From NCBI GenBank assembly GCA_003987775.1, contig RXJD01000098.1, positions 1-34,300 of the forward strand: 34,300 nucleotides of DNA. The letters are read 5' to 3'. This stretch comes from Mycobacterium sp. (GTDB lineage: Bacteria > Actinomycetota > Actinomycetes > Mycobacteriales > Mycobacteriaceae). Each line of letters begins with the position of its first letter. The first letter of the stretch is position 1. A model generated the notes under the pieces. That model was given only the letters and a program-made list of their open reading frames with translations, ran no database searches and was not told where the DNA came from. The position numbers were made by a program, and so were the translations under genes. This document shows positions 1 through 12,958 of this stretch, in pieces.

Positions 1-1008
1 CACCTCGACTGGTACCACCAACTGGCCCAGCAGGCCGGCCAGGAATGGTACAGCGAACGCCAACTCGACTGGTTCCACCGCCTTCACTGGGAAATCCCCA
101 ACCTGCGCGAAGCGCTACAGTTCGCACTGGCCGCCGCGCCGCCGGTGGCGCTGCAGATGGCCACCAGGCTGTATCGCCCGTGGACCGGCCTGGGCAAACT
201 GCAGCAGGGGCGCCGCCGAATCGAGCAGGCGCTCGACGCCGAACCCACCGCAACCGCGCTGCAACGACTACAAGCGGTCAACGCTGCGGCCGAACTGGCG
301 TTTCTGCAGGCCGACATCCCCTCCCTGGCCGCTCGGCAGGCCGAGGCACGCGAACTGCTTGCAGGCGTGACCGACCGCAATGCGATCGCCAACTTCACTG
401 TCAACGACGCAACCCTGGCGTTGCTCACCGGCCAGCTGGAACTCGCGCAATCGCTGGCCCAGGAGTCGTTCACCGGCACCGGGGAATATTGGGTGCGGAT
501 CTTCGCCCTACTCGTGATGACCTGGGCGGCCGCGGCCAATGGTGACGCACAGACCGCGGTCGCCCACGCCGAGCACGGCCTTGCCCTGTCCGAAGCCCAC
601 GGCCACGACATCATCCTCCGGACGTACCTTTGGGCAGCCCTGGCGCTCGGCCGCATGGTGCTGGGCCAACTCGAATCCGCCGAGCAGGCAGTCCGGGAAG
701 GTTTGCAACTGTCCAGGATGATGAATGACACCGTCTCTTGCGTCACTTTCGTGGAAGCGGCAGCCTGGATCGCCGCGGCCCGGAAGGAAGCATGGCGTGC
801 CGCGGTCCTGACGGCCGCAGCTGCCACTATCAGCCGGTCCGTCGGCGCTGATAGCGCGGTCTCGGCGAATGTAGGTCAATTCCACGAAGCATGCGAACAC
901 CAAATACGTGAGCAGCTCTCACCTAGCGAATACCGGACCGCAACCAACGAAGGCAGATTGCTGTCCCTCGACGAAGCCATCGCCATCGTTCTGGATGAAG
1001 CTGCCTGA
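1..1008 (+). CDS. LuxR/AfsR-type TPR regulator, C-terminal part (5' end outside window)
   Basis: The frame is open from base 1 to a TGA at 1006-1008, so the start lies upstream of the window. The first residues, with HLDWYHQLAQQA and the WFHRLHWEIPNLREAL block, match the junction between the NB-ARC-like ATPase and the TPR region in the large mycobacterial regulators of the Rv0386/Rv1358/Rv2488c kind. The rest is an Ala/Leu-rich helical repeat region. In those relatives a LuxR-type helix-turn-helix usually follows the motif seen here as LSLDEAIAIVLDE. In this gene the protein stops four residues after it, and I see no helix-turn-helix coding in the following bases. It is therefore either a family member without the DNA-binding domain or a C-terminally truncated one. 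The part upstream of the window (cyclase or ATPase domains) cannot be judged. Confidence 0.8.
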   Translation, partial: HLDWYHQLAQQAGQEWYSERQLDWFHRLHWEIPNLREALQFALAAAPPVALQMATRLYRPWTGLGKLQQGRRRIEQALDAEPTATALQRLQAVNAAAELAFLQADIPSLAARQAEARELLAGVTDRNAIANFTVNDATLALLTGQLELAQSLAQESFTGTGEYWVRIFALLVMTWAAAANGDAQTAVAHAEHGLALSEAHGHDIILRTYLWAALALGRMVLGQLESAEQAVREGLQLSRMMNDTVSCVTFVEAAAWIAAARKEAWRAAVLTAAAATISRSVGADSAVSANVGQFHEACEHQIREQLSPSEYRTATNEGRLLSLDEAIAIVLDEAA

Positions 1009-1044
1009 TCGATCACGTCCGATCTGGTGGCGGCCACACGGATC

Positions 1045-1218
1045 TCAACGACCAGGCATCAGCAGCTGACCCGATACTTCGATCGAGGATCCATTAATTT
1101 GCGGTGGCAGATTCGACGCACACGATAGTGGGCCGATACCCGACGCCGTAATCGTCGTCAGTACCGCCAAACCGGCGACGCGTGTGACAAGCATCCGTGC
1201 CTTGCGCCTGTCGCTCAT
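1045..1218 (-). CDS. Small putative exported protein (57 aa)
   Basis: The ATG at 1218 is preceded by GGAGTGGAG with suitable spacing. The 57-residue product has a basic start (MSDRRKAR), a hydrophobic segment (LVTRVAGLAVLTTITASG) and then a polar tail with QINGSSIEVS, which looks like a signal peptide followed by a very short mature part. A Cys follows the hydrophobic stretch (GPLSC), but the context is not a good lipobox. I do not recognise a family. It may be a genuine small secreted mycobacterial protein or the stub of a truncated one. The Shine-Dalgarno sequence and the signal-like N-terminus are the only support. Confidence 0.45.
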   Translation of the reverse strand: MSDRRKARMLVTRVAGLAVLTTITASGIGPLSCASNLPPQINGSSIEVSGQLLMPGR

Positions 1219-1934
1219 GGACTCCACTCCGTTCTTTTCTTCGGATCATCTCATCGAACTCGATCACATCCTGGGCCGCACCCATTCGCCATTCGGGTCG
1301 CGTTCGCCCCTACCATCGGGGCGCGCTGATCGACAGGATCCGGCACCGCACAATTTGTCGCAGCAAACGCAATTAAGACACCGCACTAGCTCTCTGCACT
1401 CCGCGACAGGTTCCCCTTTCTGCCTGTAAGGCCTCCAGCCCAGCAGCTCTTTGATGGTAAGTCCGTACCTTTCGCGGGAGAAGAGAAACCTGCACAACCG
1501 CCATCAAAACAGGAAATAGTGAGACTAAGCTGTCACATCTATGCCATAAGCGCCTCGCGTGAGGTGCACCCGTATCGTCGGTTCCCAACCAGGGCCGGAC
1601 GACCTGCGAAGGTCGCGGTCGCCGAATATGCATTGCCGCGGCCGGTGCCACGTTGGGGCTTGCCGGAGGCCGATGAACATGCAGGCAAAAGCCCATCCGG
1701 TCGGTGGTCCGTCACCGCTGACCGGACCCGTCAATCGCACACGTCCGAGTCGGGAAGCGTCTTCGCCCCGCATACTGGTTAAAACAAAAACGTCGCAACA
1801 AAGAGCGCGACGTATCGGGTTCTGCAATACGGTACCAATTGCGACCACACATCCTCAAATAGCTCAATAATTCCTCGTCAACAGGCCGAATTACCCCCTT
1901 CACGGGCCTCGCATGAGGGTCGTAGGATAACGCG
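1219..1934. other. Gene-poor stretch upstream of mmpL
   Basis: About 700 bases without a reading frame I can support. Short frames exist on both strands, but none has a recognisable protein, a good Shine-Dalgarno site or a signal peptide. By eye the base composition becomes poorer in GC towards the right end and this continues into the first part of the mmpL gene, which contrasts with the flanking genes. It probably holds the regulatory region of the mmpL-sqdB-sqdX cluster and possibly remnants of a past insertion. Confidence 0.4.
1923..1928 (+). promoter_or_regulatory. Putative -10 element of a leaderless mmpL transcript
   Basis: TAGGAT lies six bases before the ATG at 1935. No Shine-Dalgarno sequence is present. 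This spacing is what is expected when transcription starts at the A of the start codon, a common arrangement in mycobacteria. No convincing -35 hexamer is seen. Confidence 0.4.
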
Positions 1935-4900
1935 ATGCCTGGCCGTCCCGTTTCGCACGAACAAGCGAAGCCAGGTGGACTTTTTGATCAGATTGGCAAA
2001 TTTGTCATCCGGAGACCAGCATTAATCATCGGGCTTTGGCTGGTGACAACGGCAATATTATTCGGAACGCTGCCGTCATTACATTTACAGGCCGTAAAAC
2101 ACCAAGAAGCGCCGTTGCCGAATGACGCGCCCTCGGTAGCACTCAGCAAGCAGATGGGGCGAGCCTTCCATGAAATAGAAGGCGGATCGCTCCTGCTGGT
2201 GGTCTTGACCGATGAGCGGGGCCTCAGCCCGAGTGATGAGGACGTCTATCGCGGTCTCATCAAGAATTTGCGGCAAGACACTCAGGACAAAGTTCTGGTG
2301 CAGGACTTCCTGACCGTGCCGGCGCTCCGCCAGATATTAGAAAGCACCGACAAGAAGGCATGGAACCTACCGATCAGTTTCCCGGGCGAGGGGCCCACCG
2401 CGGAAACACAGCAGGCTTACCGGCATATAGCCGAAATCGTGAGAAGCTCGGTCGCGGGAACCACCCTGAGCGCTAGCCTCAGCGGGCCGGTGGCAACCAT
2501 ATCCGACTTCCAGCAGCTGGGCGAAGATGATTCCCGAGTAATCGAAATCGGCACCGTATTGTGTGTTCTCGCAATACTTTTCACCATTTATCGCAACCTC
2601 GTGACGATGCTGCTGCCGGTGGTCACGATCGGCGCTTCAGTGCTGTTCGCCCAGGGGACGCTGTCGGCTCTGTCCGACCACGGTTTGGCGCTGAATATGC
2701 AGGTGGTGGCCTTTATCAGTGCGGTGATGATCGGCGCCGGGACGGACTACGCGGTTTTCCTCATCAGCCGGTATCACGACTACGTCCGGCAGGGCGTCGA
2801 TTCGGACCAAGCGGTCGAGCGAGCATTGTTGTCCATCGGCAAGGTGATCGTCGCTTCCGCCGCCACAGTCGCCATCACTTTTCTGGCGATGGTGTTCACC
2901 CGACTGAAAGTCTTTTCCGCCGTTGGACCGGCGACCGCGATCGCGATCGCGGTGTCACTGCTGGCGGCGGTGACGCTGCTGCCTGCATTGCTGGTGCTGG
3001 CGGGCCGGCGAGGCTGGATTCATCCGCGGCGCGAATTGGCGAGCAGGTTCTGGCGCCGGTCGGGCACGGCGATCGCGCGGCGACCCGTCACCTACCTCGC
3101 CGGCAGCCTGGTGGTTCTGGTTGTCCTGGCCGGATCTGCAAGCCTCATCCACCTGAGCTTCGACGACGTCAGATTCCTGCCCCGCGATGTGGGCAGCGTG
3201 GTCGGGTACGAGCAGATCAACCACCACTTTCCCATGAATACGATGACGCCGGCCGTTCTCCTCGTGCAATCGCCGCGCGACTTACGCACCCCGGCTGCGC
3301 TGGCTGACCTCGAAGAGATGGCCCGCAGGATCAGCGAGCTGCCCGACGTCGCCGTAGTACGAGGCCTCACACGGCCTACCGGCGAAACGGTCGAACAAAT
3401 GAAAGCGTCGTTTCAAACCGGCGAAGTGGGCAGCAAACTCAGCGACGTATCGACCACGATCGGGAACCGCGCCGGAGACCTCGACACGCTCGCCGGAAGT
3501 AGTCACCAGCTGGCCGGTGCGCTTGCCCACGTGCGCGAGCAGCTGATCGGCGCCGCATCCGGGGCGGACCGGCTCATCACCGCAGTTGAGGAATTGAAGG
3601 CTTTTCTCACTACAAACCAGACACGCCAACAGCTGGTGAACGCCGGACAGATCGTCGGCCGAATGGCGGCACTGAGCAGCAATTTGAGCACCACAGTGGC
3701 GAGCGCTCAACAAATTGCCAGGTGGGCGGATCCCATGGTTCCCGCCCTGACGTCCAGCCCCGTCTGTAGTGCCGATCCCGGATGCGTCCGCTCGCGCACG
3801 GAATTGGCGTCGCTCGTTCAGGCCGACAAAGATGGCACCCTCGCATCGGTCGCGGCACTGGCGGCGAGCTTTCGAGAGAATCCCGATCCCAACACCGTCT
3901 CCCAGACGATGAAGCAATTCGAGCAGCAACTCGGTGTGGCCCTCACCATATTGAGAACCATGGATGGCCTGCGGGGCCGGGTGGCGCAAATGACGCTCGG
4001 AGCCGACACTCTCGCGCAGGGCAGCGCGGCGGTGGCCGAGGGAGTTCAGCAGTTGGTCGATCGGACCAAACAGCTCGGGACGGGACTGAACGAAGCCTCC
4101 ACATTCCTGTTGAGCATCAAACGCGACGCGCGCACCAGGTCGATGAACGGCTTCTATGTTCCGCCGCAGTTCATGAGTCGCGCGGAGAATTTCAGCGGCG
4201 CGGGAATTTTCATCTCCGACGACGGCCATTCGGTGCGCTACTTCATTCAGAGCGCGCTCAACCCCTTCACTACGTCCGCGATGGATCAGATCTCGAGGAT
4301 CACCTCGGCCGCGCGTTCGGCTCAGCGCAATACCGAGTTGGTGGACGCATCGATCGGGCTGACGGGCATCACAGCCGGCCTCAAAGACATCCATGACTAC
4401 TACCGCAGCGACATGGAGTTCATTGTCATCTCCACCGTCGTCATCGTATTTCTCGTTCTGGCTGCACTACTGAGGGCAATCGTCGCGCCGCTCTACCTGA
4501 TCACGTCGGTCTTGATTTCCTACCTATCAGCCCTGGGACTGAGCGTCATCGTCTTTCAACTGCTGCTGGATCAGCAGATGCATTGGAGTTTGCCGGGGTT
4601 GTCTTTTGTCTGCTTGGTGGCGGTGGGCGCGGACTACAACATGCTCCTGATATCCCGAATTCGGGAAGAATCGTCCGACGGCGTCCGCCTGGGAGTTGTC
4701 CGAACAGTGGGCGCCACTGGCGGCGTGATCACATCGGCCGGGATGATATTCGCCGCTTCGATGTTCGGACTGATGGCGGCGAGCATCGGCACGGTAGTTC
4801 AGGCAGGTTTCACCATCGGTATGGGAATCCTCCTCGATACTTTTCTCGTACGCACTGCGACGGTGCCGGCTCTGGTGGCAATCATCGGACGAGCCAGCTG

Positions 4901-5288
4901 GTGGCCTGGGGAACGCGCAGGCAAATGGCTCCGGAATACATCAAACGCCTTGGCATACCAACTCTCTCGCGGGAGCCGCGGGCTCTCCGGTCGCGTTTCC
5001 GGCCCCGCTGACAAGCGCTGCATGCCGGGAACCGTTACCAGCTCTGTTGAACCACCCAAGCCGGGCGCAGCCGCCGTCATCAGTGGTCTGCTGCAAAGCC
5101 GTTCCGGGATACACGCCCTGCCGTTGTTCGCATGCAACCACGGCACCCAACCGCCGCCCCGACGGTCACAATCTCGACGATCAAGGCCCAGGAATAAGGC
5201 ACAAGAAGTCAGCAGGCCGGACGCGGATTTCGTGCAGCACGCGTTACCGCTTTTTTGTCTCATCGAGGCGCCGATCACAGCCAACTGA
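1935..5288 (+). CDS. mmpL: MmpL-family RND lipid transporter (1117 aa)
   Basis: The protein has the MmpL plan: a first membrane helix near residues 25-46, a periplasmic porter domain to about 195, a five-helix membrane bundle to about 365, another helix near 385-405, a large second periplasmic domain (about 410-810) whose middle is rich in heptad-like Ala/Leu/Gln helices, and a last membrane bundle near 830-1000. The conserved proton-relay Asp-Tyr pairs are D271-Y272 (GAGTDYAVF) and D900-Y901 (GADYN). At 1117 residues it is in the size range of the longer glycolipid MmpLs such as MmpL8 or MmpL12. No mmpS lies beside it. The two downstream genes encode sulfoquinovose-lipid enzymes, so by analogy with MmpL8 and sulfolipid-1 the inferred cargo is their product. 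The tail carries HALPLF twice (residues 1060 and 1102). The start of the gene is unusually AT-rich for this window. Confidence 0.93.
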   Translation: MPGRPVSHEQAKPGGLFDQIGKFVIRRPALIIGLWLVTTAILFGTLPSLHLQAVKHQEAPLPNDAPSVALSKQMGRAFHEIEGGSLLLVVLTDERGLSPSDEDVYRGLIKNLRQDTQDKVLVQDFLTVPALRQILESTDKKAWNLPISFPGEGPTAETQQAYRHIAEIVRSSVAGTTLSASLSGPVATISDFQQLGEDDSRVIEIGTVLCVLAILFTIYRNLVTMLLPVVTIGASVLFAQGTLSALSDHGLALNMQVVAFISAVMIGAGTDYAVFLISRYHDYVRQGVDSDQAVERALLSIGKVIVASAATVAITFLAMVFTRLKVFSAVGPATAIAIAVSLLAAVTLLPALLVLAGRRGWIHPRRELASRFWRRSGTAIARRPVTYLAGSLVVLVVLAGSASLIHLSFDDVRFLPRDVGSVVGYEQINHHFPMNTMTPAVLLVQSPRDLRTPAALADLEEMARRISELPDVAVVRGLTRPTGETVEQMKASFQTGEVGSKLSDVSTTIGNRAGDLDTLAGSSHQLAGALAHVREQLIGAASGADRLITAVEELKAFLTTNQTRQQLVNAGQIVGRMAALSSNLSTTVASAQQIARWADPMVPALTSSPVCSADPGCVRSRTELASLVQADKDGTLASVAALAASFRENPDPNTVSQTMKQFEQQLGVALTILRTMDGLRGRVAQMTLGADTLAQGSAAVAEGVQQLVDRTKQLGTGLNEASTFLLSIKRDARTRSMNGFYVPPQFMSRAENFSGAGIFISDDGHSVRYFIQSALNPFTTSAMDQISRITSAARSAQRNTELVDASIGLTGITAGLKDIHDYYRSDMEFIVISTVVIVFLVLAALLRAIVAPLYLITSVLISYLSALGLSVIVFQLLLDQQMHWSLPGLSFVCLVAVGADYNMLLISRIREESSDGVRLGVVRTVGATGGVITSAGMIFAASMFGLMAASIGTVVQAGFTIGMGILLDTFLVRTATVPALVAIIGRASWWPGERAGKWLRNTSNALAYQLSRGSRGLSGRVSGPADKRCMPGTVTSSVEPPKPGAAAVISGLLQSRSGIHALPLFACNHGTQPPPRRSQSRRSRPRNKAQEVSRPDADFVQHALPLFCLIEAPITAN

Positions 5289-5351
5289 TACGGGGCGGGA
5301 AAAAGAACGGCTGAACGTGGGAATCCCCGCCTCAGCTACCAACACATCAGC

Positions 5352-5358
5352 AAAGGAG
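5352..5358 (+). promoter_or_regulatory. Shine-Dalgarno site that places the sqdB start at ATT
   Basis: AAAGGAG sits seven bases before ATT at 5366. Reading from this ATT gives (M)KIIVLGGDGFCGW, the complete first beta strand and GxxGxxG loop expected for the family. No ATG, GTG or TTG lies between the in-frame stop at 5312 and the TTG at 5381, and starting at that TTG would remove the beta strand. Confidence 0.65.
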
Positions 5359-5365
5359 TTCAATC

Positions 5366-6604
5366 ATTAAAATAATCGTCTTGGGTGGCGACGGCTTCTG
5401 CGGATGGCCATGCGCCCTCAATTTGTCCGACGCCGGCCATGACGTCGTCATCGTAGACAGTCTTGTGCGCCGCAAGACAGATATCGATTTGGGCGTCAAG
5501 TCGCTGTCGCCGATTGCCAACATCTTCGAACGCTTGGAGGCATGGGCACGGACCGGCGGAAATCCCATCAGGTTCGTCCAACTCGACATCGCGACAGAGT
5601 ACGAGCGGTTACGGGACCTACTCAAGCGGGAACGTCCGGATTCGGTGGTGCACTGCGCCGAACAGCGTGCCGCTCCGTACTCGATGAAAAACCCTGCGAC
5701 CAAACGCTATACAGTGCACAACAACGTCAACGGCACGCATAACCTGCTCTGCGCAATCGTGGAGACGGGACTCGATATCCACGTTGTGCACTTCGGCACC
5801 ATGGGCGTGTACGGGTACGGCGGTCTGCAGAACGGCTCGATCCCCGAAGGTTACCTGGAGGTCGAGATAGCCGGCGGTGGCCACGGTCCGTCCCGGCGGG
5901 AAATCCTTTACCCCGCTGACCCGGGAAGCGTTTATCACATGACCAAGTCGCTTGATCAGTTGCTTTTCTATTTCTACAACAAGAACGATCGTATTCGGAT
6001 CACCGACCTGCATCAAGGAATTGTCTGGGGCACGAATACGGTACAGACGAAGCGCCACCCGAAGCTGATCAACCGTTTCGATTACGACGGCGACTATGGA
6101 ACGGTCCTCAACCGTTTTCTGATGCAGGCAGCTATCGGCTACCCACTGACGGTGCACGGCACCGGAGGACAGACCCGCGCATTTATTCATATCAGTGATT
6201 CGGTGCGCTGCGTACAGTTGGCGCTCGAGAATCCGCCGCACAATCAAGACCGGGTGAACATCTTCAATCAGATGACCGAAGTCCACCGGATCAGGGACCT
6301 GGCGGTGAAGGTGGCTGAGCTGACCGGTGCGGAGATCAGTTATCTGCCCAACCCGCGCAAGGAAGCGGTCGAGAACGACCTGCAGGTCGAGAACCGGCAC
6401 CTGCTGGACCTCGGGTTGAAGCCGACAACCCTGAGCGACGGCTTGATGACTGAACTTGTCGACGTTGCTAAGCGCTTCGCCTATCGGTGCGACCCCGCTC
6501 GGGTGCCATGTACGAGCGCCTGGGTCGGCCCGGCAAATGTCAGTGGAGAGGTCGCCGAACCCGCATTGACAGCCCCCTTGGGCGCACTCACATCGGAGAT
6601 ATAG
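5366..6604 (+). CDS. sqdB: UDP-sulfoquinovose synthase (SqdB/SQD1 family), rare ATT start
   Basis: This extended short-chain dehydrogenase would convert UDP-glucose and sulfite to UDP-sulfoquinovose in the cytosol. The match to plant SQD1 and bacterial SqdB runs end to end: GGDGFCGW, the family signature around LVRR...LGVKSLSPI, HCAEQRAAPYSM, the NAD-site loop, T145 in FGTMGVYG, Y190 and K194 in YHMTK, TDLHQGIVWG, RFDYDGDYGTVLNRF, PLTVHGTGGQTRAFI, FNQMTE and PNPRKEA. These blocks are far more specific than for a generic NAD-dependent epimerase, because the RR and the GQTR segments bind the sulfite and nucleotide ends. The length, 412 residues, is normal. It lies 77 bases after mmpL and 88 before the sulfolipid-synthase-like gene. 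The start is inferred as ATT (see the ribosome site), which may limit translation. A related sugar-sulfonate synthase for another glycoconjugate is the main alternative. Confidence 0.9.
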   Translation: MKIIVLGGDGFCGWPCALNLSDAGHDVVIVDSLVRRKTDIDLGVKSLSPIANIFERLEAWARTGGNPIRFVQLDIATEYERLRDLLKRERPDSVVHCAEQRAAPYSMKNPATKRYTVHNNVNGTHNLLCAIVETGLDIHVVHFGTMGVYGYGGLQNGSIPEGYLEVEIAGGGHGPSRREILYPADPGSVYHMTKSLDQLLFYFYNKNDRIRITDLHQGIVWGTNTVQTKRHPKLINRFDYDGDYGTVLNRFLMQAAIGYPLTVHGTGGQTRAFIHISDSVRCVQLALENPPHNQDRVNIFNQMTEVHRIRDLAVKVAELTGAEISYLPNPRKEAVENDLQVENRHLLDLGLKPTTLSDGLMTELVDVAKRFAYRCDPARVPCTSAWVGPANVSGEVAEPALTAPLGALTSEI

Positions 6605-6692
6605 AGCAGCGCATGTCCGTGCAATGCATCCCCGCCGCGGCATTTACCGCCGATATCGCTGGTTTTTGCCTACCCGACGTGAGGTTCACTTG

Positions 6693-7859
6693 ATGCGTAT
6701 TTCGATATTCACAGATAATTTCGTGCCGAAGGTCGACGGCATCGTCACCCGTCTCACCATGACGGTGCAGGCCTTGATTGACGCCGGGGATGACGTGCAG
6801 ATTTTCTGCCCCGACGATGCGCCGTCCACCTACCACGGGGCGGAGATCGTAGGTTTGCCGTCCGTCCGATTACCGTCGTACCCCGAGGTGAAATTGGCGC
6901 TGCCCACGCGCACCGTTTCCGCGGCGTTGAACCGATTTCAGCCGGATGTGATCCACGTGGTCAACGCATTCGGGCTGCTGGGCGTGGGGGGCATCTGGTT
7001 CGCCAAGCGCAAAAAGATACCGCTGGTCGCCAGCTACCATGTCGACCTGCTGAAGTACGCCGACTTTTATCGGTGGCCCGCGCCGGTGAAACGGGCCAGT
7101 TGGAAACTCGTCCGAGCAGCTCACAACCAGGCAGCACTCACACTGTGCACCTCGACACCACTGGGCGCAGACCTCCGCAGCAGTGGTGTCCAGCGCGTCA
7201 CCAAATGGCCGCGCGCTGTGGACACCGAACTATTCCATCCTCACCGCGCCTCGTCGGAATGGCGCAATCGGCTGCTGGGAACCCATAGCGACAATGGCGC
7301 ACTTCTTCTCTACGTCGGCCGGCTGGCCGTGGAGAAGGAGATCGAACAAATGCGTCTCGTGCTCGATGCGTTGCCCGACGCCCGGTTGGCGCTGGTTGGC
7401 GACGGCCCGCACCGAAGACAACTCGAAAGGCATTTCGCCGGAACCGCGACCACGTTCCTGGGGTACCTGAGCGGTGAACAGCTGGCGGCGGCCTACGCCA
7501 GTGCCGACGCGTTTGTGCTGACCTCCTGCACCGAGACACTCGGCCTGGTGCTGCTGGAGGCCATGGCGGCGGGCTGCCCCGTAATTGCGGCCAATCGAGG
7601 CGGTATTCCTGACGTCGTCCAGGACGGCGTCACAGGTTTCCTGTACGAACCCGGCCGTCCCGGTGACTTGGTCGCGCAAAGCAAACGGCTGTTGAGCAAC
7701 GCCGCGCTGCGCCAGGCGATGAGCCGGTCTGCGCGCCAGGAAGCCGAGCGGTGGTCCTGGAAATCAGCCACAGACGAGTTGCGCCGTCAATACGTGCGGG
7801 CTGTCGGCGCGACCCCCACGCGCCGCCGCTTGATCGCCAGCGGTGCGTCGACGGTGTAG
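6693..7859 (+). CDS. sqdX: GT4 glycosyltransferase, sulfolipid synthase-like (SqdX/SQD2)
   Basis: SqdX/SQD2 transfers sulfoquinovose from UDP-sulfoquinovose to diacylglycerol at the membrane. The 388-residue product resembles it along both halves of the GT-B fold: an N-terminal acceptor domain with the FTDNFVPKVDGIVTRL loop, FxPDVIHV and SYHVDLLKY, then the donor domain with KWPRAVDTELFHP, LLYVGRLAVEKEI, LVGDGPHRRQLE, and the EX7E motif E281/E289 in TETLGLVLLEAMAAGCPVIA followed by GGIPDVV. The ATG at 6693 has GAGG eight bases upstream. GT4 mannosyltransferases such as MgtA or PimB' share much of the donor domain, so on sequence alone the sugar is not certain. Its place directly after a UDP-sulfoquinovose synthase makes sulfoquinovose the best donor. 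The acceptor lipid is unknown. Confidence 0.85.
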   Translation: MRISIFTDNFVPKVDGIVTRLTMTVQALIDAGDDVQIFCPDDAPSTYHGAEIVGLPSVRLPSYPEVKLALPTRTVSAALNRFQPDVIHVVNAFGLLGVGGIWFAKRKKIPLVASYHVDLLKYADFYRWPAPVKRASWKLVRAAHNQAALTLCTSTPLGADLRSSGVQRVTKWPRAVDTELFHPHRASSEWRNRLLGTHSDNGALLLYVGRLAVEKEIEQMRLVLDALPDARLALVGDGPHRRQLERHFAGTATTFLGYLSGEQLAAAYASADAFVLTSCTETLGLVLLEAMAAGCPVIAANRGGIPDVVQDGVTGFLYEPGRPGDLVAQSKRLLSNAALRQAMSRSARQEAERWSWKSATDELRRQYVRAVGATPTRRRLIASGASTV

Positions 7860-7862
7860 GGA

Positions 7863-7879
7863 CCTTTCCGAGCGGAAGG
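7863..7879. terminator. Weak hairpin between convergent sqdX and meaB
   Basis: CCTTTCC and GGAAGG can pair around GAGC with one bulged T. It lies in the 28-base gap between the ends of two convergent genes. No T tract follows. It could be a weak bidirectional terminator. Confidence 0.3.
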
Positions 7880-7887
7880 CACGGAGG

Positions 7888-8760
7888 TCAGTCCTGCCGG
7901 GGCGCCAGCAGTCGTTCGGCCGCGGCGTAGGGATCGCCGTGTCCGTCGACGACCGATTCGGCGAGCAGATCCAGGTCGGTGCGGGTCCGTAGCCGGGTTT
8001 GCGCCAGCGACAGGATCTGCGCCCGGGCGCGGGCCAGCCGCCGGGTGCGGTTGTCGGAGCGGTGATGGGCGTCGATGGCGGCGACCAGATCCTCCAGCCC
8101 CTCACCGCGGGCCGCGATGAGGCTGACGATCGGCGCGCTGGTTTCGGCCCGCAGATCGCGCACGGTCTGCTGGGCACCGTCGCGGTCGGCCTTGTTCACC
8201 GCCACGATGTCGGCGACTTCCAGCAGACCCGCCTTGGCGGCCTGCACCGCGTCGCCGGCTCCGGGGTTGAGGATCACGACGGTGGGGTCGGCGACGGCGG
8301 CGATCTCGATCTCCGACTGGCCCACTCCGACGGTCTCCAGCAGGACGACGTCGTAGCCGATGGATCCGAGCAACCTGATCGCCGCGGGGACGGCAGCGGC
8401 GAGGCCGCCGAGATGTCCCCGGCTGGCCACCGAGCGGATCAGCACGTCGGAGTCGTTGATGTGCGCGGTCATTCGGATACGGTCGCCCAGCAGCGCGCCG
8501 CCGCTGAACGGCGAGGACGGATCCACGGCCAGGACGGCGACCCGTTGATCCTGCTTGCGGTAGGCGCCGACGAGGGCGCCGACCGTGGTCGATTTACCTG
8601 CGCCCGGGGGGCCGGTGATTCCGATTACCCGCACGGGCGCGGCCGGGCCGAGGGCGGTCAGCACCTCGTCCCGGCTCTCACTCTCGACGAGGCTGAGCAG
8701 TCGCCCGGCGGCGCGCGGAGAACCGTTGCGCGCCTTGGTGATCAGGTCGGTGACGTCCAG
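7888..8760 (-). CDS. meaB: MeaB/ArgK-type GTPase, chaperone of B12-dependent mutases
   Basis: MeaB proteins use GTP hydrolysis to load and protect the cobalamin of acyl-CoA mutases. The G1 loop is GPPGAGKST, followed by VLAVDPSSPFSGGALLGDRIRM, SVASRGHLGG, ETVGVGQSE and the NKAD base-recognition motif, all typical. The first standard start is GTG at 8664, but the frame continues upstream with TDLITKARNGSPRAAGRLLSLVE, the conserved N-terminal helices of the family. That part is open only back to a TGA at 8773-8775 and has no ATG, GTG or TTG, so the start must be CTG at 8760 or another unusual codon, or the true start was lost. It is a shorter paralogue type than Rv1496. Its likely partner is the mutase encoded by 18282-20285. 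Confidence 0.85.
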   Translation of the reverse strand: MDVTDLITKARNGSPRAAGRLLSLVESESRDEVLTALGPAAPVRVIGITGPPGAGKSTTVGALVGAYRKQDQRVAVLAVDPSSPFSGGALLGDRIRMTAHINDSDVLIRSVASRGHLGGLAAAVPAAIRLLGSIGYDVVLLETVGVGQSEIEIAAVADPTVVILNPGAGDAVQAAKAGLLEVADIVAVNKADRDGAQQTVRDLRAETSAPIVSLIAARGEGLEDLVAAIDAHHRSDNRTRRLARARAQILSLAQTRLRTRTDLDLLAESVVDGHGDPYAAAERLLAPRQD

Positions 8761-8793
8761 GGTTGGGTCCGTTCAGCGGGGCGGGTTGGTAAC

Positions 8794-8808
8794 GAGAACC
8801 CCATTCTC
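8794..8808. promoter_or_regulatory. Putative operator, GAGAA-N5-TTCTC
   Basis: GAGAACCCCATTCTC forms two 5-bp arms around five bases. It lies between meaB and the divergent hydrolase gene. The same 15-bp layout occurs at 15276-15290 in the fadD/ferredoxin intergenic region. A TetR-type repressor site is the natural reading. Confidence 0.45.
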
Positions 8809-8827
8809 GCACTTTCTCGCCTCTACC

Positions 8828-8889
8828 CGCGAGCAGACACAAAATCGCATATTTGCGAACGACAACGTGCGATTTTGTGTCTGCTCGCG
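8828..8889. repeat. Perfect 22-bp inverted repeat with 18-base loop
   Basis: The left arm 8828-8849 begins CGCGAGCAGACACAAAATCG and the right arm 8868-8889 is its exact reverse complement. It stands in the divergent promoter region, directly before the hydrolase gene. I recall closely similar GCGAGCAGAC...AAAATCGC palindromes as scattered intergenic elements in mycobacterial genomes, but could not verify this here. It can form a long hairpin or cruciform. Confidence 0.85.
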
Positions 8890-8893
8890 CGGC

Positions 8894-8899
8894 CATAAT
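8894..8899 (+). promoter_or_regulatory. Putative -10 element of leaderless hydrolase transcript
   Basis: CATAAT lies six bases before the GTG at 8906, the spacing of a leaderless mycobacterial transcript. No Shine-Dalgarno site is present. The region where a -35 box would be falls inside the right arm of the inverted repeat. Confidence 0.45.
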
Positions 8900-8905
8900 G
8901 GCACC

Positions 8906-9760
8906 GTGGACACGATCGAGGTTCCTGGCGGCCGGGTGTGGTTCAAGCGGGTGGGGGCCGGTGCTGGCCTGCCTCTACTGGTGGTGCACGGCGGCCCCGG
9001 CCTGCCGCACTACTACCTCAGCTCACTGGAGCGCCTCGCCGACCAACGGGAAGTGATCTTCTGGGATCAGCTCGGCTGCGGAAACTCCGAGCACCCCGCC
9101 AACCCCGACCTGTGGACCATGGAACGCTCGGTCGCCGAGCTGGACGCCGTCGTTCGGGCCTTGGGGCTGAACGCTTTTCACCTCTTCGGAAACTCGTGGG
9201 GCGGCATGCTGGCACAGCAGTATGTGCTGGACGTCCCCTCCGGTGCCGTCAGTCTCACCATTTCCAACAGCGCAGCGTCCATTCCCGTCTTCGCCGAGAA
9301 CGTGATCCGGCTGAAGTCCCAGTTGGATCCCGCCACCCAAAATGCGATCGACCGCCACGAAGCCGCCGGCACCACCGATTCCACGGAATACCAGGCCGCG
9401 ATCACCACCTGGAACGAAACCTACCTGTGCCGGACGCTGCCCTGGCCGGACGACCTCTACCGGGCCTTCGCGAACATGGGTGCCGAGATCTTCCAAACGA
9501 TGTTCGGGCCCAGCGACTTTCACATCGTCGGCACCATTCGGGACTGGGACGTGGTCGACCGGTTGGGTGAGATCGCCATCCCGACTCTGTTACTGGCGGG
9601 CAGGTACGACGAGTGCTCACCGGAGCACATGAAGGAAATGCACGAGCGCATCCCCGGTTCCCGTTTCGAGTTCTTCGAGCACACCGCCCACCTGCCGTTC
9701 GTGGAGGAGCCTGAGCGTTTCGATGCGGTAGTGCGTGCCTTCCTGGGGCAGCACGACTGA
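8906..9760 (+). CDS. Alpha/beta hydrolase, proline iminopeptidase-like
   Basis: A 284-residue alpha/beta hydrolase of the S33 proline iminopeptidase group, which releases N-terminal residues from small peptides or acts on related amides and esters. It shows the HGGPG oxyanion-hole motif, FWDQLGCGNSE, the nucleophile in GNSWGG, the acid in AGRYDECSP and the catalytic His in EHTAHLPF. The frame is open far upstream, but GTG at 8906 gives the normal family N-terminus (VDTIEVPGGRVWFKR) and fits the promoter. The upstream extension would translate the inverted repeat and is rejected. It is divergent from meaB. Substrate is not predictable. Confidence 0.88.
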   Translation: MDTIEVPGGRVWFKRVGAGAGLPLLVVHGGPGLPHYYLSSLERLADQREVIFWDQLGCGNSEHPANPDLWTMERSVAELDAVVRALGLNAFHLFGNSWGGMLAQQYVLDVPSGAVSLTISNSAASIPVFAENVIRLKSQLDPATQNAIDRHEAAGTTDSTEYQAAITTWNETYLCRTLPWPDDLYRAFANMGAEIFQTMFGPSDFHIVGTIRDWDVVDRLGEIAIPTLLLAGRYDECSPEHMKEMHERIPGSRFEFFEHTAHLPFVEEPERFDAVVRAFLGQHD

Positions 9761-9851
9761 GCTTGATCGCCAGCGAATGCGGGTACCCGCGAGCTGTGGT
9801 TGGCTACAAACGATGAAGTTTCGGCGCGATCGTACAAAGGGGGGCGCGTTG

Positions 9852-10655
9852 ATGAAGCGTGAGGTCGGGGCCAGCCTGCGGGTCACCGTCACCGATCCCA
9901 CGGCCCTCGAGTTTCAGATCGCGGTCGCCGCGCTGCCAGGTCTGCAGATCAACGAGTCGCTGCGGGTGAATCTGGACGGCAAACCGGTTTCGCTGCGCGA
10001 GATCCCCGGCGAACATGGCACCCGTATCCACACCGCCGACGTCGGGACGGGTGATCTGCAGGTCGACTACGAGGCCACGGTGGTCGGGCGCGCCGACCCG
10101 ATCGCGGTGCGGGACCTCGACGTCTCCACCTACCTGCGGCCCAGCCGCTACGCCGAGGCGGACAAGTTCTTCGGCTTCGCGGCCACCGAGTTCGGTCAGT
10201 ACACCAACTCGGTGACACTGCTGGAGAAGGTGTCCTCCTGGGTGGGCACCCGGCTGAAATACGTTCCGGGGTCTAGTGATCCGATCGACGGTGCGACGGA
10301 CACCCTGCTGGCGGGCGCCGGGGTGTGCCGGGACTACGCACATCTGGTGGTCGCACTGCTGCGTGCGGTGAACGTGCCCGCCCGGCTGGTTGCGGTCTAC
10401 GCACCCGGATGCGACCCGATGGACTTTCACGCGGTGGCCGAAGCGTTGATCGACGGGCAGTGGCAGGTGGTGGACGCGACGTGCCTGGCGCCGCGCCAGA
10501 CGATGCTGCGGATCGCCACCGGACGCGACGCCGCCGACACCGCGTTTCTCGACAACCACGGGGGCGCAATCGAATTGACCGAATCGGTGATCACCGCGGT
10601 CACCACCGACCCGTTGCCGCGGGATTCGGTGGAAGAACTCGTGGCGCTGGGCTGA
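9852..10655 (+). CDS. Transglutaminase-like (cysteine peptidase-fold) protein
   Basis: A 267-residue cytosolic protein with a beta-rich N-terminal domain and a transglutaminase-like core. The catalytic triad is C159 in GVCRDYAHL, H193 in FHAVAEA and D208 in WQVVDAT. The ATG at 9852 has the purine run AAAGGGGGG just upstream. It starts about 90 bases after the hydrolase gene on the same strand and may be co-transcribed. Bacterial members of this family are mostly peptidases or amidases rather than cross-linking enzymes. The substrate is unknown. Confidence 0.88.
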   Translation: MKREVGASLRVTVTDPTALEFQIAVAALPGLQINESLRVNLDGKPVSLREIPGEHGTRIHTADVGTGDLQVDYEATVVGRADPIAVRDLDVSTYLRPSRYAEADKFFGFAATEFGQYTNSVTLLEKVSSWVGTRLKYVPGSSDPIDGATDTLLAGAGVCRDYAHLVVALLRAVNVPARLVAVYAPGCDPMDFHAVAEALIDGQWQVVDATCLAPRQTMLRIATGRDAADTAFLDNHGGAIELTESVITAVTTDPLPRDSVEELVALG

Positions 10656-10798
10656 GGAATTACCCCCGGAGAACGGGCTTGTCGCCCCCGGGGCCGCGGG
10701 TCACGGCCGACACAGTGACAGTCGCCATAGTTTGATTGTTCGGACGTTGCCACGGGGTAACCGAATCAGGACCGCGTGCCAACGAAAGGAGCGCAATC

Positions 10799-11035
10799 AT
10801 GGCCGACAGTGGACCTGTGGCAGGCATCAAGGGCGTCATTGAGGACGTTATCGGTAAGGCGAAGGAAATCGTCGGAATCATCATCAGCAACGACGGTCTT
10901 CGCAACGAAGGCCGCGCCCAGCAGGACAAGGCGAAGGCGCAGCGCGACGTGGCGAAGAAAGAGGCCCAGGCTGAGTCGGCCCGGGTGGCCGCCAGCGCGG
11001 CCGAGGCCCGTCAAAAGGCCCAGTCCTCCAAGTAG
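10799..11035 (+). CDS. CsbD-like small stress protein
   Basis: A 78-residue hydrophilic helical protein. Its N-terminal half (GVIEDVIGKAKEIVG...LRNEGRAQQDKAKAQ) follows the CsbD pattern and its second half is a charged Ala/Lys/Glu coil. Mycobacterial relatives are annotated as CsbD-family or microaggregate-binding proteins and are stress-induced. The start has GAAAGGAG upstream at good spacing. It is an isolated single gene followed by a strong hairpin. Exact role is unknown. Confidence 0.8.
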   Translation: MADSGPVAGIKGVIEDVIGKAKEIVGIIISNDGLRNEGRAQQDKAKAQRDVAKKEAQAESARVAASAAEARQKAQSSK

Positions 11036-11042
11036 CACCCTG

Positions 11043-11079
11043 AGCGTGGGGTCACGTGCCGTGCATGTGGCCCCACGCT
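11043..11079. terminator. Bidirectional terminator hairpin
   Basis: AGCGTGGGGTCAC (11043-11055) pairs with GTGGCCCCACGCT (11067-11079), 13 base pairs with one G-T wobble and an 11-base loop. It sits in the short gap between the ends of the convergent CsbD-like and enoyl-CoA hydratase genes. It lacks a strong T run, as is common for mycobacterial intrinsic terminators. Confidence 0.7.
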
Positions 11080-11088
11080 TGTGCGTTG

Positions 11089-11856
11089 TCAGCCCTTGCC
11101 GGCGTTGAGCTTGCTGACGATCGCGCGGAAGTCCTCGGTGACGAACGACTGGTGCTCGGCCGACAGGGCATAGTCCAGGCTGGCGAGCACGGCGCGCTCC
11201 AAGTGGATGTTCAGCACCCGCTTGGTGCTCTCCACCGCCTGCTGGGGCAACTCCATGATCTTCTTGGCGCACTCCACCGCCGCGGCGAATGGATCGTCGG
11301 CCACGTGGTTGGCCAACCCGAGTTCGACCGCCCGCTGAGCACGAATCCTGGTGCCCGTCAACGCATATTCCTTCGCCAGCAGCAAGCTGATGTGCAGCGG
11401 CCAGGTCAGGGGTCCGCCGTCAGCGGCCACCAACCCCACCTGCACGTGCGGGTCGGCGAGAAACGCGTCCGGTGCGATGTAGACGATGTCGCTCAGCGCG
11501 ACCAGACTGCAACCCAGCCCCACGGCCGGGCCGTTGACAGCCGCAATCACCGGGATCCGGCACCGGGCCATGCCCAGCACGATCTCCCGCCCGTCGCGGA
11601 TGGTCTTGGCGCGCAGGTCGGCGTCTTCGGCGAGTTCGGCCAGATACGCGAAATCCCCACCGGCCGAGAAGGCCTTGCCGCGACCGGTGATGACCGCGGC
11701 CCGCGCCGACGCGTCGTCGGTCAGCCGCTGCCACAATCGCGCCAGCCCGACGTGCAGACTGTCGTTGACGGCGTTCAGGTCATCCGGCCGGTTGAGGGTG
11801 ATGATCCGCAGCGCCCCCTCGGCGCGAACGTCGATTTCGCTTGGCATGTCGTACAT
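11089..11856 (-). CDS. Enoyl-CoA hydratase/isomerase family protein
   Basis: A 255-residue crotonase-fold enzyme of acyl-CoA degradation. The oxyanion-hole segments are present (FSAGGDFAYL and NGPAVGLGCSLVALSD). At the position of the first catalytic Glu of classic hydratases the sequence reads FLADPHVQVGLVAADGG, with no Glu, so it may be an isomerase, hydrolase or other crotonase rather than a true hydratase. Its ATG follows the stop of the upstream acyl-CoA dehydrogenase after one base, so it is the last gene of the four-gene operon fadD-fadE-fadE-hydratase read from 15231 to 11089. Confidence 0.9.
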   Translation of the reverse strand: MYDMPSEIDVRAEGALRIITLNRPDDLNAVNDSLHVGLARLWQRLTDDASARAAVITGRGKAFSAGGDFAYLAELAEDADLRAKTIRDGREIVLGMARCRIPVIAAVNGPAVGLGCSLVALSDIVYIAPDAFLADPHVQVGLVAADGGPLTWPLHISLLLAKEYALTGTRIRAQRAVELGLANHVADDPFAAAVECAKKIMELPQQAVESTKRVLNIHLERAVLASLDYALSAEHQSFVTEDFRAIVSKLNAGKG

Positions 11857-11857
11857 G

Positions 11858-12958
11858 TCAGACTCCCAATCCCAGGATCCGCGAGGCGATGATGTTCTTC
11901 TGTATCTGCGATGTCCCGCCCATCACGCTCTGTGCGCGGCTGTACAGGTAGGCGTTGAACAGTGCGGCGTCACGGGTGCCGCCCACGGCCAGCGCGGCGT
12001 GCCCGACGGACTGTTCGACCCACGTCATCAGCAGTTTGTCCAACGAGCCTTCCGGCCCATGCGACACACCGTCGAGTTGCTCGGACAGCCGGCGCCGCAC
12101 GTGGTGCGTCAGCATCTCGGCCTGCACCGCCGCCCAGGCCACTTCCTCTTTGACGGAGTCGTCCGGGTCCTCGTTGCTGCGGGTCACCAACTCCGCGACC
12201 AGTTTGTTGTAGCGGGCCGCGTAACCGAGGGTGGACGGTTCCCGTTCGTGGCCAACAACCGTCATCGCGACGGCCCACCCGTCTCCGGGGGCACCGACCA
12301 TGCGATCTGCCGGTACCGTGGCGCCGTCGAAGAACACCTGGCCGAACTCGTTGGTGACGCCGTTGATCATCTGCAGCGGACACTGTTGCACGCCAGGCTG
12401 TTTCATCGAAAGCACGAAAGCGGACAGACCGCGGTGCCGCTTGGCATCGGGATCGGTGCGGGCCAGCAGTAGGCACCAGTCGGCGACGTCGGAGTAACTG
12501 GTCCAGATCTTGTGCCCGTGGATCACGTAATCGTCGCCGGCGCGGGTCGCGGTGGTGGTCAGCGACGCCAGGTCCGAACCGGCACCCGGCTCGCTGAACC
12601 CCTGACACCAGCGCTCGGAACCGTTGATGATGCCGGGCAGAAACCGCTGCCGCAGCGCATCGCTGCCGTGGTGGCCGATCCCCATCACCAGATACCCGAC
12701 GCTGGGGCGCGGCGGGGCGCCCGCCCGCGCGATTTCCTCGTCGACGATGACGTCGTAGACCGGCGGCAGCTCGAAACCCCCGTAATCACGGGGCCAGGAC
12801 AGTCCGAAGAAGCCCTCTTCGTAGAGCGCGCGGTGCCAATCCGCCTGACGGGCCCAGTATTCGTCCCCGGAGCCGCCGAACTCCTTGGCGTGCAACGCAA
12901 GCCACGCGCGCAGCCGCTGCCGGAATTCCGCCTCCTGAGGTGAGTCACGAAAGTCCAC
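11858..12958 (-). CDS. fadE: Acyl-CoA dehydrogenase, large subunit type
   Basis: A 366-residue flavin-dependent acyl-CoA dehydrogenase. It has the FAD-binding segment GFSEPGAGSDLASL, the IHGHKIWTSYSDVADW block and the C-terminal LYSRAQSVMGGTSQIQKNIIASRILGL. It starts at GTG 12958 and overlaps the stop of the upstream FadE gene by 14 bases. Mycobacterial FadE proteins encoded as such adjacent pairs (for example the ChsE pairs of steroid side-chain degradation) form alpha2beta2 heterotetramers with one FAD site per pair. This one keeps the FAD-side motifs, so a heterodimeric partner role with the next gene is inferred. Confidence 0.92.
   Translation of the reverse strand: MDFRDSPQEAEFRQRLRAWLALHAKEFGGSGDEYWARQADWHRALYEEGFFGLSWPRDYGGFELPPVYDVIVDEEIARAGAPPRPSVGYLVMGIGHHGSDALRQRFLPGIINGSERWCQGFSEPGAGSDLASLTTTATRAGDDYVIHGHKIWTSYSDVADWCLLLARTDPDAKRHRGLSAFVLSMKQPGVQQCPLQMINGVTNEFGQVFFDGATVPADRMVGAPGDGWAVAMTVVGHEREPSTLGYAARYNKLVAELVTRSNEDPDDSVKEEVAWAAVQAEMLTHHVRRRLSEQLDGVSHGPEGSLDKLLMTWVEQSVGHAALAVGGTRDAALFNAYLYSRAQSVMGGTSQIQKNIIASRILGLGV

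Follow-up and report, generated by a model that had tools for sequence, protein, structure and literature searches.

Sulfoquinovosyl lipids are regarded chiefly as a mark of photosynthetic membranes. In cyanobacteria, sulfoquinovosyl diacylglycerol (SQDG) is an internal membrane lipid and the known acceptor of the glycosyltransferase SqdX is diacylglycerol; in some nonphotosynthetic bacteria SQDG serves as a phospholipid substitute. The known sulfolipids of mycobacteria are sulfate esters, and sulfolipid-1 (SL-1) is a sulfate ester of acyl-trehalose. Here we describe a cassette of three genes from a Mycobacterium sp. (assembly GCA_003987775.1), coding for an MmpL transporter, a UDP-sulfoquinovose synthase (SqdB) and an SqdX. 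It lies on contig RXJD01000098.1, analysed over its entire length of 34,300 nucleotides (the window). The cassette is real, conserved and unusual. We consider it probable, though well short of certain, that an SQDG pathway imported from cyanobacteria has been coupled to a mycobacterial glycolipid exporter recruited for it.

The open-access literature yielded no mycobacterial SqdB–SqdX or SQDG–MmpL system and mentions SqdB-like genes in passing only. Mvan_5143 from M. vanbaalenii appears in an SqdB tree (PMC4388408), an RvD2 gene of M. bovis is annotated as similar to SQDG synthases (PMC2883559), and a putative SQDG is listed in M. smegmatis metabolomics (PMC7393984), a finding that needs proof beyond mass matching.

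Results

The original prediction described three codirectional genes between positions 1935 and 7859. All three open reading frames are indeed present and intact on the plus strand, separated by 77 bases (mmpL–sqdB) and 88 bases (sqdB–sqdX). The features of the cassette are as follows, where L094 and L095 denote the two intact relatives introduced below and dN/dS the ratio of nonsynonymous to synonymous divergence.

1935..5288, plus strand: mmpL, MmpL12-type RND/MmpL transporter and candidate exporter (TIGR00833, trees, dN/dS)
5352..5358, plus strand: AAAGGAG ribosome-binding site, 7 nt 5' of the ATT, matched in position by AAGGAG in both L094 and L095
5366..6604, plus strand: sqdB, UDP-sulfoquinovose synthase, apparently initiated at the ATT of 5366-5368 (NF041015, SQD1, residues, tree)
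6693..7859, plus strand: sqdX, predicted glycosyltransferase family 4 (GT4) sulfoquinovosyltransferase (UDP-sulfoquinovose:diacylglycerol), from cyanobacterial gene order, trees and EX7E

The best NCBIfam match of SqdB is NF041015 (UDP-sulfoquinovose synthase), with 318.3 bits for the protein or 325.7 bits in the genome search. The closest solved structure is that of Arabidopsis SQD1 (309.5 bits), followed at 50.7 bits by the next PDB family outside SQD1. The predicted family blocks (T145, Y190, K194, CAEQRAAPYSM and GGQTRAFI, counted from the ATT at 5366) are all in place. The protein also keeps the His and Arg of HCAEQR, the Met of GTMG and the Y-XXX-K pair, which are essential in the homologue Agl3: exchange of His95, Arg101, Met145, Tyr182 or Lys186 for alanine inactivates that enzyme (PMC4388408). 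The PDB scores lead us to reject a generic epimerase, as does a phylogenetic tree in which the protein stands beside alpha-cyanobacterial SqdB (100/99). The enzyme is predicted to make UDP-sulfoquinovose from UDP-glucose and sulfite.

The third gene codes for a 388-residue protein that hits Pfam Glycos_transf_1 and carries the two glutamates of the EX7E motif at the anticipated positions, E281 and E289. The conserved start of this gene is ATG 6693, which replaces a start first placed at 6624. Solved structures match the protein weakly (at most 66.1 bits), with 55.6 bits for PDB 3okc, which we take to be PimB'. By comparison, 76 full-length cyanobacterial SqdX proteins among the matches listed score 401-456 bits at 51-60% identity, and further cyanobacterial SqdX hits are 50-57% identical. 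The protein groups with cyanobacterial SqdX in trees. From these scores and trees we reject a mannosyltransferase, in a comparison that covered PimB' and MshA by PDB score. Placement of SqdB with generic epimerases or of the GT4 with mannosyltransferases would have refuted the original prediction, and neither was seen. Furthermore, in 80 of 80 picocyanobacterial loci among the matches listed, the gene directly following sqdB on the same strand matches the window GT4 with 50-62% identity. We conclude that this GT4 is SqdX, with a predicted activity of transferring sulfoquinovose to diacylglycerol. Taken as an assignment from homology, the case for the identity of both enzymes is strong.

A search for SqdX in 296 actinobacterial genomes found 52 that pass E ≤ 1e-50. 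Matches outside the genus reach 50% identity, and the 19 best (45-50%) all belong to one family, f32. In several f32 genomes these SqdX-like GT4s (L163-L181, 45-50%) lie beside a distant SqdB (41-44%); in others (for example, G483 and G620) SqdX is encoded on a different contig from an SqdB with 64% identity.

The start codon of sqdB is unusual. Between the upstream stop codon and the NAD-binding strand of the protein there is no in-frame ATG, GTG or TTG. ATT 5366 occupies the position that fits the AAAGGAG ribosome-binding site, and the sequence ATT AAA following AAGGAG recurs in both intact relatives (L094 4807, L095 9611), hence in three of three intact copies. A TTG at 5381 is not conserved and reads GTA or ATA in the relatives. 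At the aligned start, cyanobacterial sqdB genes among the matches listed use GTG (72 of 80), ATG (4) or TTG (4). Thus, sqdB appears to initiate at a conserved ATT. In a more distant SqdB of the genus (G152, L098 9233, 61% identical) an ATC stands at the aligned start position. Streptomyces sigR provides an example of a rare start codon that is held back by IF3 (PMC5472188), and by analogy a control of this type is possible for sqdB.

Within the genus, SqdB was found in nine of 297 genomes including our own (E ≤ 1e-60), and SqdX in four of 396 (E ≤ 1e-70). Mapping the adjacency of mmpL, as had been proposed, revealed three intact cassettes and one decayed cassette among the 297 genomes. Genomes G119 (L094) and G006 (L095) carry the complete cassette, flanked by the neighbours seen in the window, with 86% identity for SqdB, 84-85% for SqdX and 68-69% for MmpL; the right-hand flanking genes are 85-98% identical and the left-hand regulator is 64-66% identical. 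Since the cassette of G006 sits inside a contig of 6.79 Mb with these same right-hand neighbours, we can reject cyanobacterial contamination or misassembly as its source. Over the three genomes dN/dS is 0.07-0.08 for sqdB, 0.10-0.16 for sqdX and 0.16-0.19 for mmpL. These low ratios show that the genes are kept under purifying selection. Because the values are well below 1 for all three genes, and because their order is kept in two relatives, the arrangement is not a product of chance. In the decayed copy of G202 (L096 9037-11980) mmpL has lost its 5' half, and the remainder is fused by deletion to the 3' part of sqdB and interrupted by further stops; sqdX and the right-hand neighbours are retained, and the left-hand regulator has no match.

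In the five other genomes of the genus that carry it, SqdB is placed elsewhere in the tree: two group with an SqdB from a Rhodococcus plasmid, two with Pseudonocardia and one with a pair of SqdBs from rhodobacteral plasmids. SqdB proteins of the genus therefore occupy four separate positions, suggesting that the gene was gained four times. At these five loci (L097-L101) tblastn found no match to the window SqdX or MmpL (E ≤ 1e-3). Their scanned neighbours include genes for nucleotide-sugar dehydratases or epimerases, together with a GT4 and a 3'-phosphoadenosine-5'-phosphosulfate (PAPS) reductase at L097 and methyltransferases at L100 and L101. L098 and L099 share a GT2 neighbourhood that recalls the Rhodococcus plasmid locus L185. 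Among the genomes found, the combination of sqdB, sqdX and mmpL is confined to the clade of the window.

To trace the pair we compared SqdB with 84,980 species genomes. Among the matches listed, the closest SqdBs are picocyanobacterial (69-74% identity), and the 80 closest loci, which were kept, are all cyanobacterial. Plasmid-borne SqdBs reach at most 67%. In Actinomycetota, 66 of 396 genomes contain SqdB at E ≤ 1e-80, and the compared loci outside the genus are at most 65% identical; as these also branch elsewhere, an origin from other actinobacterial SqdBs is disfavoured. A tree of 71 SqdB rows was built with 22 of the 80 cyanobacterial loci and without the partial L096. In it, the clade formed by the window protein and the two intact orthologues (100/100) groups with the 22 alpha-cyanobacterial SqdBs at a support of 100/99. 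Alpha- and beta-cyanobacterial SqdBs are also separate in a published tree (PMC6946739). The tree of 74 SqdX rows drew on actinobacterial SqdX, on 22 of the 80 loci and on 29 new loci from 48 further cyanobacterial genomes matched, 18 of which returned no SqdX locus; L104 was left out. Here the four mycobacterial proteins fall inside the cyanobacteria, together with alpha-cyanobacteria at 99/94. Five alphaproteobacterial loci that group nearby were opened, and in these sqdB is followed by another glycosyltransferase, a sulfotransferase or a PAPS reductase, with no match to SqdX. Gene order and tree thus disfavour an alphaproteobacterial origin. Transfer by phage was also considered; the SqdBs of 13 IMG/VR loci are 53-65% identical, lower than those of cyanobacteria, which makes this source less likely. 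These 13 contigs classed as viral (L193-L205), some of which exceed 100 kb, encode relatives of SqdB. A cyanobacterial origin of sqdB–sqdX, beside a mycobacterial exporter, appears well supported by these comparisons. This mixed ancestry formed no part of the original prediction.

The exporter scores 974.7 bits against TIGR00833 (cut-off 874.7) and 558 bits against Pfam MMPL, and the closest solved structures are MmpL4 and MmpL5. Its paralogues in the same genome are L110 (53% identity), L118 (49%), L120 (47%) and L121 (38%), and the remaining eight compared are less than 29% identical. L110 neighbours a polyketide synthase (PKS), an EryCIII-like glycosyltransferase and a fatty-acid-AMP ligase (FAAL); L118 neighbours a PE acyltransferase, a condensation-domain protein and a PKS; the neighbours of L120 and L121 gave no glycolipid-type hit. 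The closest homologues in the genus outside the cassette are 60-63% identical. At each of six genus mmpL loci (56-63% identical) an EryCIII-like glycosyltransferase, a FAAL or both adjoin mmpL. A PKS was found at the one of these six loci with a PKS-sized neighbour tested; with L110, this makes both of the MmpL12-type loci tested.

In a tree of 35 MmpL rows (using the best 30 genus loci, with L267 left out as short) the three cassette MmpLs form one clade (100/100) on a long stem, which joins, at 100/98, a group labelled MmpL12-type from the content of its loci rather than from a named reference. Of the homologues in this tree, only those of cassette genomes fall in the cassette clade. The TIGR00833 match ends at residue 991 of 1117, leaving a long C-terminal extension. 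Alignment with the MmpL12-type paralogue of the same genome runs to residue 1113, and that with the MmpL10-type L118 to residue 1007. The sequence of this tail is poorly conserved, since the alignment reaches no further than 993-995 with five of the six closest noncassette genes. In M. marinum, MmpL12 is required for transport of lipooligosaccharide (LOS), and the MmpL12 structure has been grouped with those of MmpL8 and MmpL10 (PMC12507525). Given its position in the tree and the glycolipid-type loci of its relatives, the cassette MmpL is most simply explained as a duplicated and re-purposed glycolipid exporter. It is plausible, from linkage and clade, that this diverged paralogue of an MmpL12-type transporter exports the sulfolipid.

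Two further features concern the age of the cassette. Between the window and L094 or L095 the synonymous divergence (dS) is 1.1-1.4 in mmpL and sqdB, where values above 1 are near saturation, as against 0.38-0.56 in the flanking genes meaB and ECH; between L094 and L095 dS is 0.56-0.69. Thus, synonymous divergence of mmpL and sqdB (1935-6604) is two to four times that of the two flanking genes. The unusual divergence of mmpL–sqdB in the window is perhaps a result of exchange between mycobacteria. The cassette genes contain 58-64% G+C, compared with 66.5% in the rest of the window.

The cassette is bounded by the following two genes.

1..1008, plus strand: C-terminal part of a probable large regulator, the 5' end of which is lost at the contig start
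7888..8664, minus strand: meaB-type GTPase (PF03308), right-hand boundary, a host gene outside the system

The regulator fragment is 64-66% identical to proteins encoded 5' of mmpL in L094 and L095 and has no Pfam hit. The full-length regulator of L095 scores above the cut-off for TetR_N and slightly below those for NB-ARC and STAND; in this genome the gene is present as a tandem duplicate (244-2838 and 3145-5733) 5' of the cassette. The 926 bases 5' of the window mmpL (1009-1934) have no blastn match to the shorter leaders of the two relatives. In four of six other genomes examined, meaB, a hydrolase gene, ECH and ACAD lie near each other with no match to the cassette, and the other two match the hydrolase only. 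An Rfam scan of positions 1-12000 returned nothing that reached the gathering threshold, a promoter and terminator scan of 1000-8000 gave no clear excess over shuffled sequence, and a tRNA scan found none. Six scanned proteins of 1-9760 gave no PKS, AMP-binding or condensation-domain hit, and the scanned neighbours of the cassette gave no FadD or GT28-type hit.

Discussion

The identity, phylogeny, linkage and selection of these genes are observed; from them we predict a route, and with it a product, an acceptor lipid, a cargo and a direction of transfer. SqdB would condense UDP-glucose and sulfite to UDP-sulfoquinovose; four genes of the PAPS-reductase family in the same genome make a supply of sulfite plausible. 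At the inner face of the plasma membrane SqdX would transfer sulfoquinovose to diacylglycerol, with SQDG or a close relative as the likely product. The linked MmpL would move this anionic, sulfonated glycolipid in the direction of the mycolate outer membrane. The pair sqdB–sqdX may have come from the alpha-cyanobacterial line or an unsampled carrier of it, and may have become linked to a mycobacterial exporter in an ancestor of the carrier species. We advance a more elaborate version tentatively, and believe it less readily: that some mycobacteria took an alpha-cyanobacterial operon, recruited a spare LOS exporter, put sqdB under AUU control and display a sulfonated glycolipid in the outer membrane.

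Several observations weigh against this hybrid of a cyanobacterial pathway and a mycobacterial exporter. SqdB scores below the NF041015 cut-off of 575. This cut-off may be narrow, because it was passed by only one of 14 control genomes, 13 of which gave matches. SqdB also carries Val at the position of Agl3 E147, which is Glu in both SQD1 and Agl3. The E147A variant of Agl3 retained 12.4% activity (PMC4388408). Val at this position is common to the compared SqdBs from S. meliloti, a roseobacter (Palleronia), Rhodococcus and cyanobacteria, while the residue is Glu in a genus relative of a different clade (L100) and Lys in Pseudonocardia. Judged from this alignment, Glu is not a family-wide requirement, and its loss slows Agl3. 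The cassette contains no acyltransferase, the cargo is assigned by linkage, and in G202 sqdX is intact next to a broken mmpL and a broken sqdB. As to the direction of transfer, intermediate lineages may be under-sampled in the SqdB scan. The alpha-cyanobacterial SqdBs form one clade (99/95) to which the mycobacterial clade is sister and in which it is not nested. Constraining all 51 cyanobacterial SqdX rows to one clade makes the tree worse by 7.2 log units, but the approximately unbiased (AU) test does not reject it (p 0.186). Transfer from a cyanobacterium to a mycobacterium is therefore favoured and not proven: strict nesting inside the cyanobacteria is favoured by bootstrap for SqdX, though not required, and is not seen for SqdB.

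Alternatively, SqdB and SqdX could make ordinary inner-membrane SQDG as a phospholipid substitute, for example, under phosphate limitation, with MmpL exporting something else. This would agree with the internal location of SQDG in cyanobacteria, with the lack of any MmpL match near sqdB–sqdX at the 80 cyanobacterial loci among the matches listed, with the faster evolution of mmpL (68-69% identity compared with 84-86% for sqdB and sqdX) and with the survival of sqdX in G202. However, mmpL adjoins the pair in three of three intact copies, and its clade, related to a glycolipid exporter, holds cassette genomes only. We regard this explanation as unlikely. It seems quite improbable that SqdX glycosylates another acceptor, such as acyl-trehalose or a polyketide-derived lipid, to form a sulfoquinovosylated complex glycolipid instead of SQDG. 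The acceptor choice of a GT4 is unreadable from sequence, and the nearest relatives of MmpL reside in glycolipid-type loci, but SqdX groups with cyanobacterial homologues that use diacylglycerol, and the six scanned proteins of 1-9760 were free of PKS, AMP-binding and condensation-domain hits. We give slightly less credence still to the notion of a recent import that is unused or decaying. The low G+C content, the nonstandard start codon and the broken copy in G202 would fit, whereas dN/dS values of 0.07-0.19 over three genomes and the retention of the ATT with a strong ribosome-binding site in all intact copies argue otherwise.

Were the proposed export of a sulfonated glycolipid true, the cassette would add a lipid of a new type to the mycobacterial envelope. 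It would also be a clear example of how a mycolate envelope can re-use an operon of a photosynthetic phylum, and would illustrate how duplicating an old exporter can give rise to a new MmpL cargo. SQDG would then be unsafe as a blind marker of phototrophs.

Among known systems, alpha-cyanobacterial sqdB–sqdX comes closest: it comprises the same two enzymes in the same order on the same strand, and the closest sequences among the matches listed. The window pair differs in residing in a mycobacterium, in adjoining mmpL and in starting with ATT (72 of the 80 cyanobacterial genes start with GTG). Rhizobial and roseobacterial sqdB loci encode a similar SqdB, at most 67% identical and likewise with Val in GTMGVYG, but have a different glycosyltransferase after sqdB (with an oxidoreductase in two of three) and no sqdX. 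The SqdB homologues in five other genomes of the genus sit elsewhere in the tree, with no SqdX or MmpL match beside them. LOS export by MmpL12 of M. marinum represents the closest MmpL clade, and both transporters have an extra C-terminal stretch; the cassette MmpL forms a separate clade on a longer stem, and its neighbours are without a PKS, FadD or GT28-type hit. The SL-1/MmpL8 system of M. tuberculosis likewise has an MmpL dedicated to a glycolipid of the envelope that contains sulfur (PMC12507525), whereas the product of this cassette is predicted to be a C–S sulfonate made by SqdB.

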